Part shown: positions 6,984 through 17,945 of the stretch, one piece after another
How positions within the stretch are numbered: position 1 is the stretch's first letter
Layout: each line of letters begins with the position of its first letter
NCBI GenBank assembly: GCA_004297305.1
Contig: SCTR01000002.1
Coordinates: 143,440-207,439, forward strand
Reading direction: 5' to 3'
Length of the DNA: 64,000 nucleotides
Origin: Actinomycetota bacterium
GTDB taxonomy: Bacteria; Actinomycetota; Actinomycetes; S36-B12; FW305-bin1
Program-made: the position numbers and the translations under genes
Notes under the pieces: generated by a model
Told to the model about the DNA's origin: nothing
What the model saw: the letters and a program-made list of their open reading frames with translations, nothing else
Database searches by the model: none

Positions 6984-7026
6984 CCGTCGCACCGACGGGG
7001 GCGCAGCGGCGCCGGAGCGGAGCGGC

Positions 7027-8022
7027 ATGGCAGCCACCCAGGGTCGTCGACCTGCCGCCGTCTCGGCCGAGCAGGCCGAGTCGGCTGTGCCGGAGGCGCG
7101 TCGGGCCCGGACCTCCACAGCGGCGCGGGCGACCGCGAAGGCAACGCCGGCCAAGTCGGCGCCAGCCAAGTCGGCACCAGCCAAGTCGGAGCGGCCGAAG
7201 TCGGACGGTACGTCGTCGGCGAAGAAGGCCCCGGGCGGCGTTCCGGCGAAGAAGGCAGCGTCGACGTCGACCAAGAAGACGCCGACGACGAAGAAGTCGA
7301 CACCCGCGAAGAAGTCGGTGGCAGCGCCGGCGCCGGCGAAGAAGGCCCCTGTGACGAAGACCCCCGCCGCGAAACCGACCGCGCCGAGGGCTGCTTCCCA
7401 GGCCACAGCACGTAAGGCGGCCGCGCCCAAGGCTGCTGCCGAGTCCGCGGGACAGGCGGCCGCGCCGACCAACGGGACCAAGACGCCGGCGACCAAGGCC
7501 GCCGCAACCAAGACCGCCGCGACCAAGACCGCCGCCACCAAGACGCCGGCCGCCCGAACCGTCCGGGACACCGCCTCCGCCGGCAGCACGGAACCGGGAA
7601 CCTCTGGCGGACATGACGTCCCGTCGCCAGCCGGTCCTGCCGTCCTCCCCGGCGAAGCGCCCTGGACCGATGCCGAACTGGCCGATCTCAGGTCGGCGCT
7701 GTCGGTCGACCTCCACCGGCTACGCGAGGAGGTCCGGATCGCCGAGGCCGACATCGCCGACCTCATCCGGGACTCCGGCGAGGGTGCTGGCGACGATCAG
7801 GCGGACGCCGGGACCAAGACCTTCGAGCGCGAGCACGAGATGTCGTTGGCCAACTACGCCAGAGACATGGTCGATCAGGTCCTGCATGCGATCAGTCGGC
7901 TCGACGACGGCACGTTCGGTAGCTGCGAATCGTGCGGCAACCCGATCGGCAAGGCGCGGCTGCAGGCGTTCCCGCGCGCCAGCCTGTGCCTGTCGTGCAA
8001 GCAGCGCGAGGAGCGTCGGTGA
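7027..8022 (+). CDS. TraR/DksA-family zinc-finger protein with long histone-like N-terminal tail
   Basis: A 331-residue protein in two parts. Residues about 25-190 are low-complexity Lys/Ala/Pro/Thr, with repeats such as AKSAPAKSAPAKS (42-54) and ATKTAATKTAATKT (near 160-173), resembling the tails of linker histones and mycobacterial HupB. Residues about 210-331 are the TraR/DksA unit: a coiled coil (213-250), then a C4 zinc finger with Cys300, Cys303, Cys321 and Cys324 (CESC and CLSC). By family the C-terminal part may enter the RNA polymerase secondary channel or simply bind zinc; the role in actinobacteria is poorly known. ATG 7027 is chosen because GGAGCGGAG lies just upstream. The place between ileS and lspA is the usual one in Streptomyces. 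Confidence 0.85.
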   Translation: MAATQGRRPAAVSAEQAESAVPEARRARTSTAARATAKATPAKSAPAKSAPAKSERPKSDGTSSAKKAPGGVPAKKAASTSTKKTPTTKKSTPAKKSVAAPAPAKKAPVTKTPAAKPTAPRAASQATARKAAAPKAAAESAGQAAAPTNGTKTPATKAAATKTAATKTAATKTPAARTVRDTASAGSTEPGTSGGHDVPSPAGPAVLPGEAPWTDAELADLRSALSVDLHRLREEVRIAEADIADLIRDSGEGAGDDQADAGTKTFEREHEMSLANYARDMVDQVLHAISRLDDGTFGSCESCGNPIGKARLQAFPRASLCLSCKQREERR

Positions 8023-8092
8023 CTCCGGCGGCGTTCGTGTCGCGCTGATCCCCGACGATCGCTCGCCCGGCCGGGGCACCGTCGCGCTGCCG

Positions 8093-8106
8093 TAGGCTCG
8101 CGTGCC
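8093..8106 (+). promoter_or_regulatory. -10 element giving a leaderless lspA transcript
   Basis: TAGGCT at 8093-8098 ends 8 bases before GTG 8107, so transcription would start at or next to the start codon. No Shine-Dalgarno is present and no clear -35 was seen. Confidence 0.45.
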
Positions 8107-8697
8107 GTGAGCCGAGCCGCTGCTGTCGATGCCGATCAGCGGCGCCGGCTCCTCGTGATCCTGGGTTCGGTCGTCGCGGGCGTGGTCGTCATCGATCAGG
8201 TGACGAAGGCGCTGGCCGTCGCCTACCTGCGCCCTCGTATCGAAGCCGGCGAAGGTCCGCTGGACCTCATCGGACCTATTCTCAAGCTCACCTATACGTT
8301 GAACTCCGGTGCCGCCTTCAGCATCGGGACCGGCTTCACGTGGATCTTCACCGCGATCGCCGTCGTCGTGGTCATCGTCATCGCCCGGACCGCGCGCCGG
8401 CTGGGCAGTCTGTGGTGGGCCATCGCCCTGGGGGGTCTGTTGGGCGGTGCCATCGGCAACCTGCTCGACCGCGCGTTCCGGTATCCCGGCCCGGGCCGCG
8501 GCTACGTCGTGGATTTCCTCGAACTGCCTCGGTGGCCGATCTTCAACGTCGCCGACATGGCCGTGGTGGGCTCGGCGATCCTCATGGTGATCCTGTCGCT
8601 GACCGGTGTGGAACTCGGCGGCCGACGGGCGGACGACGCGCCGCCGGACGCCGACGATGCCGATGCGCTGCCTCGGCCCCCGGCGACCGATGCCTGA
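8107..8697 (+). CDS. lspA: Lipoprotein signal peptidase (signal peptidase II)
   Basis: A 196-residue integral membrane aspartyl protease that cuts the signal peptide of prolipoproteins after lipid transfer by Lgt. Four hydrophobic segments are visible. Family motifs are present: [11 protein letters not shown] near the first helix, [18 protein letters not shown] with one catalytic Asp, and [10 protein letters not shown] with the second. The C-terminal 25 residues are Asp/Pro-rich and probably cytoplasmic. GTG 8107 is placed at the predicted leaderless start. The stop overlaps the next gene by 8 bases (ATGCCTGA), so LspA and the pseudouridine synthase are translationally linked, as in other actinobacteria. 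Confidence 0.95.
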
Positions 8698-9613
8698 GCA
8701 GCGCGCGCTCGCGGTTCCCGACGGGCTGGACGGCGAGCGGCTCGATGCCGCGCTGTCCCGGCTGTTCGGGCTCTCCCGTACCCGTGCCGCCGACCTCGTC
8801 GAGGCAGGACGGGTCAGGCTCGGCGGCCAGCAGTGTGCGAAGAGCACGCGGGTGCAGGCCGGCGACTGGCTGGAGGTCGAGCTGCCCGACCCCGCCGTCG
8901 CGGCAGCGCCGGTCAACGAACCGGTCCCGGGCATGCGGGTGGTGTACGACGACGACGACCTGGTGGTCGTCGACAAGCCCGTCGGAGTTGCGGCCCATCC
9001 CAGTCCGGGCTGGCACGGACCGACCGTCGTGGGTGGCTTGGCAGCGGCGGGGTTCCGGGTATCGACGTCGGGGGCCGCCGAGCGCCAGGGGATCGTGCAC
9101 CGGCTGGACGTGGGCACCAGCGGGCTGATGGTGGTGGCCAAGAGCGAAACCGCCTACAGCTCACTCAAACAGCAGTTTCGCGATCGGACGGTCGAGAAGA
9201 TCTACCACGCTCTGGTGCAGGGACACCCGGACCCGCTGCGCGGCACGGTCGACGCCCCCATCGACCGGCATCCGCGCGACGACTGGAAATGGGCCGTGGT
9301 CTCCGGAGGCAAGCCGTCTGTCACGCACTACGACACGCTGGAGGCTTTTCCCCACGCGAGCCTGCTGCAGGTCCGGCTGGAGACCGGTCGGACTCACCAG
9401 ATCCGGGTGCACATGGCGGCACTACGACACCCCTGCGCCGGCGACGTGATGTACGGCGCGGATCCGGTGCTCGCGGCTCGGCTGGGCCTCACCCGGCAGT
9501 GGCTGCACGCGACGCAACTGCAGTTCGAACACCCCAGCAGTGGGGCGCGGCTGAGCCTGTCCGCGCCGTACCCAGACGACCTCCGTATCGCCCTCGACCG
9601 CATCTCGTCCTGA
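8690..9613 (+). CDS. RluA-family 23S rRNA pseudouridine synthase (RluD-like)
   Basis: A 307-residue protein with an N-terminal S4 RNA-binding domain (about residues 5-70, including [20 protein letters not shown]) and a RluA-type catalytic domain. The catalytic aspartate lies in [18 protein letters not shown]. Downstream [11 protein letters not shown] is also a family signature. Members convert specific uridines of large-subunit rRNA to pseudouridine. RluD (positions 1911/1915/1917) is the likeliest assignment from domain layout and its place after lspA, but target sites cannot be read from sequence. ATG 8690 starts inside lspA; the longer frame from 8606 would run inside lspA and lacks homology. 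Confidence 0.9.
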
Positions 9614-14399: not shown

Positions 14400-15023
14400 G
14401 TGGCTGCTGAGCCGGACCCCGCAGCGACTCACCCGCCCGGAGCGGACGACGACCGGCCGCCGGAGGGCGACGCCGCCATAGCCGGTGGCGAGACCGTCGA
14501 CGTACGGCCCCGAGAGGTGATCGTCGATCGCGCCGACCTGCGCGGCGGCGCCCTGACCGTACTCGGTTGCCTGCTGCTGGGTGTCGTTGTGGCGTTGCTG
14601 TGGTGGTGGCGCGCGCCGCGAGAGATGGTCGTCGTCGTGTCCGGCGGCGCCGATCCGGTCGATGCGCAGCCCGGTGCCTTCTTCGCCGCCGACCTGTGGT
14701 TCCTCGGCATCGGAGCGGCGGCCGGTGTGCTGGTCGGCGTCATCGGCCTCCGGCTGGCCGGGACCGCACGGATCGGCCTGCTGGTCGGTGGAGCGATCGG
14801 CGGCGTCGTCGGTTCGATCCTGGCCACGTGGCTGGGCGAGCGTTGGGGCGCAGTCGATCTCGCCGGTCTGGGGCAGGGGACCGTGCTCGACGCGGGACTA
14901 CGGGTACGGGCCACCGGGGTACTGCTGGCGTGGCCGATCGTCACGGTCGCCTTCGTCGGTCTGGTCACCCTGGCCGAGTGGTTCGTCGACCGCCAAGTTC
15001 CGGATCCTCTAGGAACGACATGA
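14400..15023 (+). CDS. Hypothetical membrane protein (DUF2567-like)
   Basis: A 207-residue protein that starts 9 bases after the dnaE stop, so it is probably cotranscribed. The first 45 residues are Pro/Asp-rich and cytoplasmic. Four hydrophobic segments follow: LTVLGCLLLGVVVALLWWW, LWFLGIGAAAGVLVGVIGL, GLLVGGAIGGVVGSILATWL and a last one near 175-195. Between the first two is a short outside loop with VVVSGGADPVDAQPG. The overall pattern recalls DUF2567 proteins found beside dnaE in actinobacteria; this is from memory and not tested. Function unknown. It ends just before the lower-GC cassette, which lies on the other strand. Confidence 0.75.
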   Translation: MAAEPDPAATHPPGADDDRPPEGDAAIAGGETVDVRPREVIVDRADLRGGALTVLGCLLLGVVVALLWWWRAPREMVVVVSGGADPVDAQPGAFFAADLWFLGIGAAAGVLVGVIGLRLAGTARIGLLVGGAIGGVVGSILATWLGERWGAVDLAGLGQGTVLDAGLRVRATGVLLAWPIVTVAFVGLVTLAEWFVDRQVPDPLGTT

Positions 15024-15061
15024 CTTGATTCAGGTCGGTCGCTTGACTCGCAGCGTCTTCC

Positions 15062-15784
15062 TCAGTCGACGGCCATGGTCGGCGCCGACTGGCGTTCGGC
15101 TTCGACGGCGGTCCACATGGCGACATCGAGCAGTCGCAAGGCGGATACCTCGGCCAGGAGTCGGGAGGCTGTCGTGTTTGCGTTGCGCAGGGCATCGGCA
15201 CGCAATTGCTCGAGTGCGTCGAGAGTGCCCTCGGTCTGGAGCCAGGCGCGGAGGTAGTGCCAGAAGGATCCGGCGACTCGAGCATCGGTATGGACGGGTC
15301 TTGCTGCGACGTCTGCGGCCAGGTGCAGCATGACGTACGAGTCCTGAATCGGTACCAGACTGGAACGCTTGTGGGCAAGCAGCTTGCTCGCAGTCGTGGG
15401 CCCGACACCAGGGAGGCCAACGAGCAGGTCCCATAGGCGCCACAGAGGCGAGTCACGACCGAGGGTCACGTCGGGGGCGTCAGATAGGGGGACGTTGGTC
15501 GGTACGTCTCTCAGCAACGACCTGATTTCGTGCTCTCGTGTTATCAGGATCTCGATGGCGGCGCGAGGAGGCACCGTAACGCTAAGCATGCTGGTGGCGA
15601 CGATGTCCTCGCAGAGCAGTCTGTCAGGATCGAGGGTGCCCGTGTCGCGTCCGACAACCTCGAACATTCTGCCCGTGTAGGTGGCGAAGTACTGTCCGAC
15701 GAGGCTGAATGTACGGTCATAGATTGGTGATCCTGGCCGTACGACGGCGTCTAAGAAGTCCCATCCGCTGGCCTTGCTCGCCAT
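15062..15784 (-). CDS. Helix-hairpin-helix-like protein A of cassette (DUF6308-like)
   Basis: A 240-residue cytoplasmic protein, last gene of the three-gene reverse cassette. The strongest signal is GLPGVGPTTASKLL followed by VPIQDSYV, which reads like the helix-hairpin-helix and catalytic-Asp region of HhH-GPD DNA glycosylases; the position of the EndoIII Schiff-base lysine is Thr here. It is homologous to the first cassette gene (16914-17549), matching at LLRDVPTNVPLSDA, DLLVGLPGVGP, KRSSLVPIQD and the ending LRLLDVAMWTAV. The family resembles Pfam DUF6308 from memory. ATG 15784 is chosen over ATG 15820, which overlaps the ATPase stop as ATGA, because AGAGGAGGA lies 7 bases upstream. Base composition is visibly lower in GC than the flanks. 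Function unknown. Confidence 0.8.
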   Translation of the reverse strand: MASKASGWDFLDAVVRPGSPIYDRTFSLVGQYFATYTGRMFEVVGRDTGTLDPDRLLCEDIVATSMLSVTVPPRAAIEILITREHEIRSLLRDVPTNVPLSDAPDVTLGRDSPLWRLWDLLVGLPGVGPTTASKLLAHKRSSLVPIQDSYVMLHLAADVAARPVHTDARVAGSFWHYLRAWLQTEGTLDALEQLRADALRNANTTASRLLAEVSALRLLDVAMWTAVEAERQSAPTMAVD

Positions 15785-15816
15785 GTCGTCCTCCTCTGGC
15801 GTTTCCAGGTTGACAT

Positions 15817-16911
15817 TCATAGGTAGTTTCCATGCGTCATCTGCGAGGTGGGCTTACTTACAAGTCGAGTAACAGCGCCGCTACGCTCGAACAACTCGGC
15901 GAGCGTCAGACCTCCTGCCGGAATCGCTGCCGTGGAGTTACCTAACCATCTCTGTGCCTCAACCTCGCTCAGAGCCTCGAACTCAAGATGCCCGAGATTT
16001 CGCCCGGGCCGCAGAAGCGCCGGATCGATACGTGACACCGGAGCATTGCTGGTCATAAGGATGAGTACCCGCTCGCCTTGGCCGAGCACGCCGTCGGCGA
16101 CGTTCAACAGGCGGCTCATTCCAGCACCGGTGGCCTTTCGGTTGCTGGATGCGATGAAGTCGTCAGCGTCCTCGCAGACTATCGCGCGCCACGGTCGCGC
16201 GGCTGGCTCTTGCGTATCGGCGCTTTGGTAGTTGCCTCTTTGTGCCTCGTTGAGAAGGTCGAGGAGGTAGGACGGCTCAGCGAAGAGTCGTTCTGGGTCG
16301 ATGATCACGTGGAATTGACACCATGATGCCCATTCGCGCATGAGCGCTCGTAAGGCTGTTGTTTTTCCGGTGCCCGGCGGGCCCGTCCAGATAAGCAGCT
16401 GACCCTGTCCGACTTTTCCGTCCAGTGCGACCAGCTGACTGAGCGCTGAACTGACCGCTGCCGCGTAATTCATCTCGATCTCCGCCCAGGCCGGTGTGGA
16501 CAACCGCTTGACCTGTACTCGAGGATAACCGCGCGAAAGAGTCCAGAAGGTGACATCCACAACGCCGGGCAGGCGCGGTGCCTTAGCCAGTCGTTCGATA
16601 CTTGTCAAGGCGGTTTCGACCAGGGCCCGTGTGGGTGCCGCCACGGTGACCTGTGCCGACGTCCTTGTCGCGCTAATATAGATCGTTGATTCGCCAGACT
16701 GTGCGACGGCTGTCGAGTATCCGACGGTGGAGAATTCGTGAATGACAGATCCGGCTAGTTCTGCGAGATCCGCTGCATCGACCTGCCCGGGGATTTGTAG
16801 AGAGCGGAGCACCGGCAGGTGTCCGGCAACGGCCCGGAAGACCCACGCGCTTATATTGGTCAACTCCGAGGCGGGATTGGCTGCCTGGTAGTCGAGTGAG
16901 GTCAGGTCCAT
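15817..16911 (-). CDS. AAA+ ATPase of cassette (DUF5925-like N terminus)
   Basis: A 364-residue protein from ATG 16911; an alternative ATG at 16941 would add 10 residues and overlap the preceding gene. Residues 1 to about 160 match no domain I recognise. The C-terminal half is an AAA+ core: Walker A GPPGTGKTT, Walker B AIVCEDADDF (Glu-Asp in place of the usual Asp-Glu), sensor 1 LMTSNAP, and an arginine-finger region IDPALLRPGR. The arrangement recalls actinobacterial DUF5925 ATPases, unverified. Its start lies 2 bases after the stop of the first cassette gene and it ends just before the third, so the three form one operon. A stretch such as 16681-16740 has 34 of 60 G/C, well below the flanks. 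The partner choice suggests remodelling of a protein-DNA complex; that is inference. Confidence 0.85.
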   Translation of the reverse strand: MDLTSLDYQAANPASELTNISAWVFRAVAGHLPVLRSLQIPGQVDAADLAELAGSVIHEFSTVGYSTAVAQSGESTIYISATRTSAQVTVAAPTRALVETALTSIERLAKAPRLPGVVDVTFWTLSRGYPRVQVKRLSTPAWAEIEMNYAAAVSSALSQLVALDGKVGQGQLLIWTGPPGTGKTTALRALMREWASWCQFHVIIDPERLFAEPSYLLDLLNEAQRGNYQSADTQEPAARPWRAIVCEDADDFIASSNRKATGAGMSRLLNVADGVLGQGERVLILMTSNAPVSRIDPALLRPGRNLGHLEFEALSEVEAQRWLGNSTAAIPAGGLTLAELFERSGAVTRLVSKPTSQMTHGNYL

Positions 16912-16913
16912 GA

Positions 16914-17549
16914 TCACCGCCGGCCCACCGTCGACATCCAAACAGCTATATCGAAGATCCGTAGTTGAGAGGGCACGAAGCCGCCGTCAGTTTCAGCGAT
17001 GATTTGTTGTTGGAAACCGGTCAGTGCGCGGACATTTGCAGGGATCTGTAGGTCTGCGCGCATGGCGAACAACAGGTCAGGAAGGCGACCGGCGGCCCGC
17101 CGACCTGTGGCACCTGCGTACAGGTCCGAGGTCGCTCTGTCGTATGGAGGAATGAGGCGAGGACGGGCTCGATGCACGATCTTTGCCAGAAGCGTCGGCT
17201 CAAGATCGGTCCCAAGGAGCAGGTCGGATACATCTGTCAGTTGCTTGTTGGACGCGTCGCGAAGCGAGGTACTCGTCGGTATGGCGGCGAGGCGGGCCTC
17301 AACCAGATCGCGACATCGATCAAAATGCTCGAGATCGCGCCGCGTGAGTCGCGCCCCAAGGCTGCTCGCCGCCAGGAGGTCGTCGTCATCGACCCGTCCG
17401 TCCGACCGACGGCGGGAGGCGTCATACGTGCGGAACGCCCAAGTCTCCCGCGGCTCGGTTAGGCCCAGGTAGCGACGGACAAGCTGGCCTGCGTCTGGCA
17501 GCCCCGTGTTGGCCGCGCTCAACCCAGCGTCCCACAAAACGTTTTGCAT
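16914..17549 (-). CDS. Cassette protein B, paralogue of protein A (DUF6308-like)
   Basis: A 211-residue protein, first gene of the cassette. It shares with protein A the order of motifs LAAIPTSTSLRDA, VSDLLLGTDLEPTLLAKI, RPRLIPPYDRAT and QLRIFDIAVWM. The canonical hairpin LPGVG has decayed to TDLEP, but the following Asp (PPYD) remains. ATG 17549 (MQNVLWDAGL) is chosen over the longer frame from 17615 because AGAGGAGGA lies just upstream, the same ribosome site used by protein A. The AAA+ gene follows after 2 bases. A and B look like diverged duplicates, perhaps a heteromer acting with the ATPase. No known function. Confidence 0.8.
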   Translation of the reverse strand: MQNVLWDAGLSAANTGLPDAGQLVRRYLGLTEPRETWAFRTYDASRRRSDGRVDDDDLLAASSLGARLTRRDLEHFDRCRDLVEARLAAIPTSTSLRDASNKQLTDVSDLLLGTDLEPTLLAKIVHRARPRLIPPYDRATSDLYAGATGRRAAGRLPDLLFAMRADLQIPANVRALTGFQQQIIAETDGGFVPSQLRIFDIAVWMSTVGRR

Positions 17550-17945
17550 GCTGCTTCCTCCTCTGGAGCGATCAGCGAGAGCAGAACCATAGCCCACGCG
17601 ACCGACAGGCGACACGGCCTCTGGTAGGCGGGTTGATCATGGCGGTCGACGGACTCAATCTGCCGGTAGCTCTTGAGGTGCTAGGTGTGAGTGAAATGCG
17701 CGACACGAGTCGAACAGTTTCCTCCCGTGGCGCGTGCTGTTCCGGTGAGCTCTTCTGGGGTTGCGCGCTCTGTTGCCGTCACCGGACCGTAGCGGCGCCA
17801 GTCGCCACCGACCACTGATCCAACGTCGGCGCATCCGCAACACCGGGGGTTTGTCGGCCCCAGTTTGGGGAACGTCGGTCGTCGGTTCCGAAACGCCGAT
17901 ACGCCGGGACGCCGGTGCGTCCCAAAGCGGTTGCGGTGGCGGGGG
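17550..17945. other. Gene-free stretch upstream of the cassette
   Basis: This 396-base region separates the cassette from the LON-domain gene. Short frames in it have no homology I recognise and no good ribosome sites. It probably holds the cassette promoter. I saw no inverted-repeat ends, tRNA or integrase that would mark it as an insertion boundary. Confidence 0.5.
17586..17614 (-). promoter_or_regulatory. Possible promoter of the three-gene cassette
   Basis: On the reverse strand TATGGT (17591-17586) is a fair -10; 17 bases further upstream TGTCGC (17614-17609) is a weak -35. The start codon at 17549 lies about 30 bases downstream of the predicted start. Confidence 0.3.

Follow-up and report, generated by a model that had tools for sequence, protein, structure and literature searches.

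Three genes inserted between dnaE and hisD

Three intact open reading frames lie in succession on the minus strand at positions 15062-17549 of the window, as the whole 64,000-nucleotide stretch of actinobacterial DNA analyzed here is called. Gene A (16914-17549) encodes an A-type DUF6308 protein of 211 aa (PF19827, E 1.8e-23); gene B (15817-16911), in the middle, encodes a 364-aa DUF5925-AAA+ ATPase in which PF19347 and PF00004 both score above their cut-offs; and gene C (15062-15784) encodes a second DUF6308 protein of 240 aa (PF19827, E 3.4e-42). Re-derivation of the open reading frames reproduced exactly the strand and spacing given in an initial annotation of this DNA, with 2 bases between gene A and the ATPase gene and 32 bases between the ATPase gene and gene C. 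The identical ribosome-binding site that it placed upstream of the outer genes was also recovered (AGAGGAGGA, minus strand, at 17556-17564 for gene A and 15789-15797 for gene C), and its description of these genes as paralogues agrees with their common DUF6308 membership and with a BLASTP match of 26% between A and C (E 5e-4). Gene C has an alternative upstream start, the ATG at 15820, which would extend the protein to 252 aa and cause an overlap with the ATPase stop, as seen in related cassettes.

The three genes are part of an inserted segment (15024-17945), evident from the dnaE-hisD distance and from GC content, that is flanked by a dnaE-side open reading frame (14400-15023) and by a LON-domain gene on the minus strand (from 17946). 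The GC content of the insert is 61.9%, versus 71.7% for the window. GC3 of A, the ATPase gene and C is 65-73%, versus 86.6 +/- 5.3% (minimum 75%) in the 41 other genes, and the codon usage of all three deviates from the mean more than that of any of those 41. The lower base composition reported earlier was thus confirmed, and the count of 34 G/C in the 60 bases of 16681-16740 was exact. The distance from dnaE to hisD is 4324 bp here, versus 515-1793 bp in ten relatives of the same order, all ten of which lack the cassette; the interval in these relatives often holds the same small open reading frame and LON gene. This empty site, together with the foreign composition, bears out the earlier proposal that a unit was acquired between two conserved blocks, and horizontal transfer is the best explanation for the low-GC insert between dnaE and hisD. 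No ortholog of the ATPase was found elsewhere in the order (166 genomes, which gave distant generic AAA matches only), and a search for close relatives across 84,980 species genomes, in which the ATPase was the only query, found none. At the edges of the insert there were no attachment-site or target-duplication repeats beyond short, chance-like ones, and no viral contig or phage record was found to carry a relative of the DUF6308 queries used. Elsewhere in the window, the AT skew jumps from +0.32 to -0.18 between the adjoining kilobases of 7001-9000.

Other cassettes were sought through DUF6308 matches in phylum and class samples, of which about 6% and 18%, respectively, contained DUF6308, together with a contig-level scan of genomes. 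DUF6308, DUF5925-AAA and DUF6308 genes were found as a set in four genomes besides that of the window, so that the ATPase does co-occur with homologs of both outer proteins. The order is A-ATPase-C in Mycolicibacter longobardus and M. sinensis, ATPase-A-DUF6308 in a Jiangellales metagenome-assembled genome (MAG) and A-A-ATPase-DUF6308 in an Acidimicrobiales MAG; a fixed A-ATPase-C layout, as first described, thus recurs in both Mycolicibacter but is too narrow a description, because elsewhere the DUF6308 genes differ in how many there are and in how they are arranged. Between the two Mycolicibacter, 2.4 kb of cassette can be aligned at 76%, and the flanks have no alignable match, so the cassettes occupy different loci. 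In the tree, the A proteins of the cassettes, gene A included, form one clade (support 99/98), and the second DUF6308 partners are drawn from different DUF6308 clades. By these sequence comparisons, A and the ATPase are the constant pair of the cassette, and the second DUF6308 protein is exchangeable.

The presence of the same gene set in four other genomes indicates a real, sporadic and transferable unit. The foreign composition, and the lack of a close ATPase relative in the rest of the order, would also be expected if decaying foreign genes had gathered here by chance and had no joint function. However, all three open reading frames are intact and have ribosome sites, and the set recurs in four other lineages, at different loci in the two Mycolicibacter, which makes a chance gathering very improbable.

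The ATPase and its C-terminal tail

The identification of the middle gene as an AAA+ ATPase is secure: it contains a Walker A motif (GPPGTGKT, 16360-16383, minus strand), a Walker B motif (IVCEDAD, 16162-16182, minus strand), a sensor-1 (MTSN) and an arginine finger (RPGR). The DUF5925 domain (PF19347, 45.9 bits, cut-off 27) comes first and is followed by the AAA domain (PF00004, 43.5 bits, cut-off 21.2). Among 14 homologs the Walker A motif is invariant except for its second residue (P188) and its last T, and Walker B residues E257 and D258 are invariant. All that follows the AAA core is a brief conserved segment, SLAELYE, and then a tail of low model confidence that ends in G-x-Y-L.

The structural model of the ATPase is weak (pLDDT 65) and does not resolve the C-terminal tail. 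Foldseek ranked Bcs1 (6.5e-12) and YjoB first, both as full-length matches, and in VIA comparisons YjoB (Z 14.7) and the proteasomal activator Mpa (Z 13.9 over 168 residues) were tied within 1. A Bcs1/YjoB-like N-domain plus AAA arrangement may be present by the top Foldseek and VIA matches, which come with a large full-length rmsd and at that low model confidence. Assignment to two known families was rejected: the Mpa/ARC model TIGR03689 scored 13 bits against a cut-off of 504.75, and the Cdc48/Cpa model TIGR01243 scored 28.8 bits against 802.65, the window protein having a single AAA domain.

The ATPase ends in G-N-Y-L (15820-15831, minus strand), a proposed 20S proteasome docking motif that is common to the cassette ATPases and was missed by the initial annotation. 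In Mpa and Bpa, a C-terminal GQYL, in which the Q is replaceable, is the 20S docking motif (PMC6017811, PMC12288473) and inserts between the alpha-subunits of the 20S core (PMC6017811, PMC12288473, PMC8223512). The tails of the five cassette ATPases are GNYL in the window, GMYL, GMYL, GTYL (the Jiangellales MAG) and GQYL, and the same type of end was present on every homolog checked from Nonomuraea and from Streptomyces-type and Rhodococcus-type genomes, these last two being labels of genome kinship and not species names. YL ends are carried by 35 of the 907 distinct genes called in the fetched loci, and all 35 are G-x-Y-L. A separate list of open reading frames with this end consisted of AAA ATPases, among them the Mpa-like proteins of order relatives, which end TGQYL, with one exception, a small GroES-like open reading frame (L119:262-594) ending TGLYL. 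Given this C-terminus, the likely mechanism shifts toward the 20S proteasome.

The genome from which the window derives encodes two 20S subunits (PF00227), on contig C7 of G000. Among genomes with YL-tailed ATPases, 20 have a 20S proteasome and one does not, compared with two with and 12 without among the non-YL genomes (Fisher p 1.3e-6; 1e-4 counted by genus). The single YL genome in which no proteasome was detected is the Jiangellales MAG, which is 81% complete, and the two non-YL genomes with a proteasome (G124 and G167) are of GF type. In the twelve genomes lacking the proteasome, the DUF5925-like ATPases end in GF(A) and none in YL. The GF ATPases form a single clade (support 100/99), apart from the YL ATPases in one tree, so the correlation with the proteasome amounts to essentially one evolutionary contrast. 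The conserved C-terminus of this sister clade (L204-L219, L033, L035 and L036) is GF or GFA(A).

These observations can be read in two ways. The ATPase may act without the proteasome, as a Bcs1/YjoB-like remodeler of DUF6308 proteins or of DNA-bound complexes, with a YL end that is inherited and does not dock. The full-length matches to Bcs1 and YjoB fit such a role, as do the GF-ending sister clade, which works without a proteasome, and the DUF5925 ATPases that stand alone in Streptomyces and Rhodococcus types. Nevertheless, the terminal G-x-Y-L is kept although the 20 residues preceding it vary freely, and an unrelated AAA+ protein beside an A-type DUF6308 gene has the same end: in genome G162, the DUF6308 gene follows a different AAA+ gene with an IS30-like element inside, the C-terminal fragment of which ends GAYL. 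A remodeler that makes no use of the proteasome is accordingly considered unlikely, and docking of the ATPase on the 20S proteasome through its G-x-Y-L tail is the probable reading of the sequences. At the G162 locus (L144:6892-10091), a GNAT-like gene also follows.

The window ATPase resembles Mpa/ARC and Bpa/PafE in ending with G-x-Y-L, the penultimate Tyr of which is essential, and in having hosts with a 20S proteasome; like Mpa, it is also a classical AAA+ protein. It differs from Mpa in having a beta-rich DUF5925 N-domain where Mpa has a coiled coil (PMC12288473), and from both Mpa and Bpa in that its gene belongs to a mobile cassette and has DUF6308 genes as partners. With Cpa it shares the AAA+ neighborhood of Cdc48, an actinobacterial host and a link to the proteasome, but the terminal Tyr motif is absent from Cpa (PMC6017811), whereas the window protein combines a single AAA domain with that motif. 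A beta-rich N-terminal domain followed by one AAA module may be shared with Bcs1 and YjoB. Bcs1 is a membrane protein translocase, and chaperone-like roles occur in the Bcs1/YjoB group; neither protein is known to have a proteasome tail.

The DUF6308 proteins

Both outer proteins belong to PF19827 by a wide score (A, 83.9 bits; C, 145 bits; gathering cut-off 27.3). They had been labeled HhH-like, which is appropriate for gene C, with its LPGVG hairpin, but less so for gene A, in which the hairpin is degenerate and its glycines are lost. The AlphaFold model of gene C (pLDDT 77.9) gave no Foldseek match under E 0.001. In the VIA comparison, HhH-GPD DNA glycosylases accounted for all 50 of the 50 matches listed, each with Z below 8, the best being Helicobacter pylori MagIII (Z 7.4, 155 residues at 4.1 Å). 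Z values of this size are no proof of the fold, but a DNA-acting role of the outer proteins is plausible, in line with the possible DNA-acting system of the initial annotation.

In the HhH segment of gene C (LPGVG...IQD, 15341-15415, minus strand), hairpin+25, which is where HhH-GPD enzymes have their catalytic residue, is an Asp, and this residue is D in 56 of 60 DUF6308 sequences; a K at hairpin+11 (54/60) and a P at +22 (58/60) are also kept. The hairpin-to-Asp spacing in the HhH-GPD superfamily (EndoIII/MutY) is likewise about 25 residues. DUF6308 thus resembles MagIII, OGG1, EndoIII and MutY in this spacing, may resemble them in fold by the matches of gene C, and differs in lacking a sequence-level match and in the degenerate hairpin of its A-type members; glycosylase activity is putative. 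Classification as HhH-GPD glycosylases by sequence was rejected: neither A nor C hit the Pfam HhH-GPD family at E 1, and the generic HHH motif reached 17.2 bits (cut-off 24). A PDB sequence search with gene C found no relative. On the strength of the model comparison and the conserved residues, DUF6308 proteins are likely to recognize DNA through a glycosylase-like fold.

The conserved Asp at the catalytic position would also suit a toxin. One or both of the DUF6308 proteins could attack DNA and be toxic, and would be kept in check through degradation by the ATPase and the proteasome until infection disturbs the latter. Each ATPase is accompanied by two or three DUF6308 genes, the open reading frames lie close together or overlap, and the second partner is exchangeable, all of which such a toxin-antidote arrangement might show. 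However, many genomes carry DUF6308 genes alone, with no adjoining ATPase, which is unexpected of an unrestrained toxin, and this arrangement is thought improbable.

A candidate role for the cassette

These elements are best explained by an operon, gained by horizontal transfer, that makes use of the 20S proteasome of its host. The ATPase would form rings, act as an AAA+ unfoldase and dock, by its G-x-Y-L tail, into the alpha-ring of the PrcA/PrcB core, in the manner of the Mpa and Bpa tails. A and C, with a putative HhH-GPD fold, would recognize DNA, perhaps an unusual base or a lesion, and would serve as sensors of DNA or as adaptors; they may also be glycosylases. Through them the ATPase would be guided to proteins that sit at the recognized DNA, which it would unfold into the proteasome. 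The most likely use of such an operon would be defense against invading DNA. Taken as a whole, the description of the operon as a proteasome-coupled, DNA-directed and probably defensive unit stands at about an even chance.

The defensive role is itself finely balanced, and is suggested by the neighbors of solo DUF6308 genes, not by those of the cassettes. Solo genes lie repeatedly near defense genes, in keeping with the possible defense system of the initial annotation. Type I restriction-modification genes adjoin solo DUF6308 genes at L112 and L122, and at L151 the gene for a class I prokaryotic Argonaute (pAgo), in an operon with a REase partner, precedes the DUF6308 gene by 10 bp. Other solo genes are found near a PDC-S28 helicase and a PDC-S39 protein (L099), DpdF/DrmD-like helicases (L106), MkoB (L107) and a RAMA protein (L114). 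Many solo genes have ordinary neighbors, and the defense neighbors are individual cases.

A DNA-repair or stress accessory unit with no part in phage defense would account for some of the same facts, as most HhH-GPD glycosylases function in base-excision repair and two large actinobacterial families keep a single DUF6308 copy vertically. Against this, the cassette is sporadic in distribution and foreign in composition, and several solo DUF6308 genes sit within restriction or Argonaute operons; a pure repair unit is rather unlikely.

Glycosylases are known anti-phage effectors (PMC11078745), and DUF6308 proteins can be likened to the Brig1-type antiviral glycosylases by their putative glycosylase fold. 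PADLOC-DB 2.0.0 gave no match to DUF6308 and only partial, generic AAA matches to the ATPase (best, mad8 at 23.8 bits), and no paper mentioning DUF6308 or DUF5925 was found. In keeping with the earlier statement that no characterized system with such a layout is known, no counterpart was found in the literature searched or in PADLOC-DB 2.0.0, and the tests made set the cassette apart from Mpa, from Cpa and from the known PADLOC systems.

A 2025 review lists two well characterized bacterial proteasome activators, Mpa and Bpa/PafE, plus Cpa (PMC12288473). Bpa was found by searching the Mycobacterium tuberculosis genome for an Mpa-like C-terminus (PMC8223512), and only that genome was covered. 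If the DUF5925 ATPases do dock on the 20S core, they would be a further activator family, with members both in the core genomes of Streptomyces types and in mobile cassettes, and would give a simple means of testing for other functions of actinobacterial proteasomes. Their glycosylase-fold partners and transferable operons would then link the bacterial proteasome with conflict directed at DNA; no precedent for such a link was found. It is conceivable, though we propose it tentatively, that the cassettes are a new class of mobile immunity in which glycosylase-fold sensors of invading DNA are paired with an AAA+ activator that delivers DNA-bound proteins to the host's 20S proteasome by way of its G-x-Y-L tail, and that DUF5925 ATPases, which are conserved in Streptomyces-type genomes, are overlooked activators.

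Several other DUF6308 loci were recorded. At L122 (7463-8885), genes for HsdR, a 239-aa protein with a weak HNH/type IV restriction match and DUF6308 follow one another on one strand. At L151 (3193-9994), the REase partner in the pAgo operon is Aga and a helicase is encoded as well; the DUF6308 protein there is perhaps an undescribed pAgo accessory. The genome of the window carries a third DUF6308 gene, a solo one, on contig C8 (L105:8982-9932). In four Rhodococcus plasmid records (NZ_CP080955, CP003952, NC_008270 and NZ_CP118328) a DUF6308 gene lies within about 1-3 kb of the record end, and one of these records is linear.
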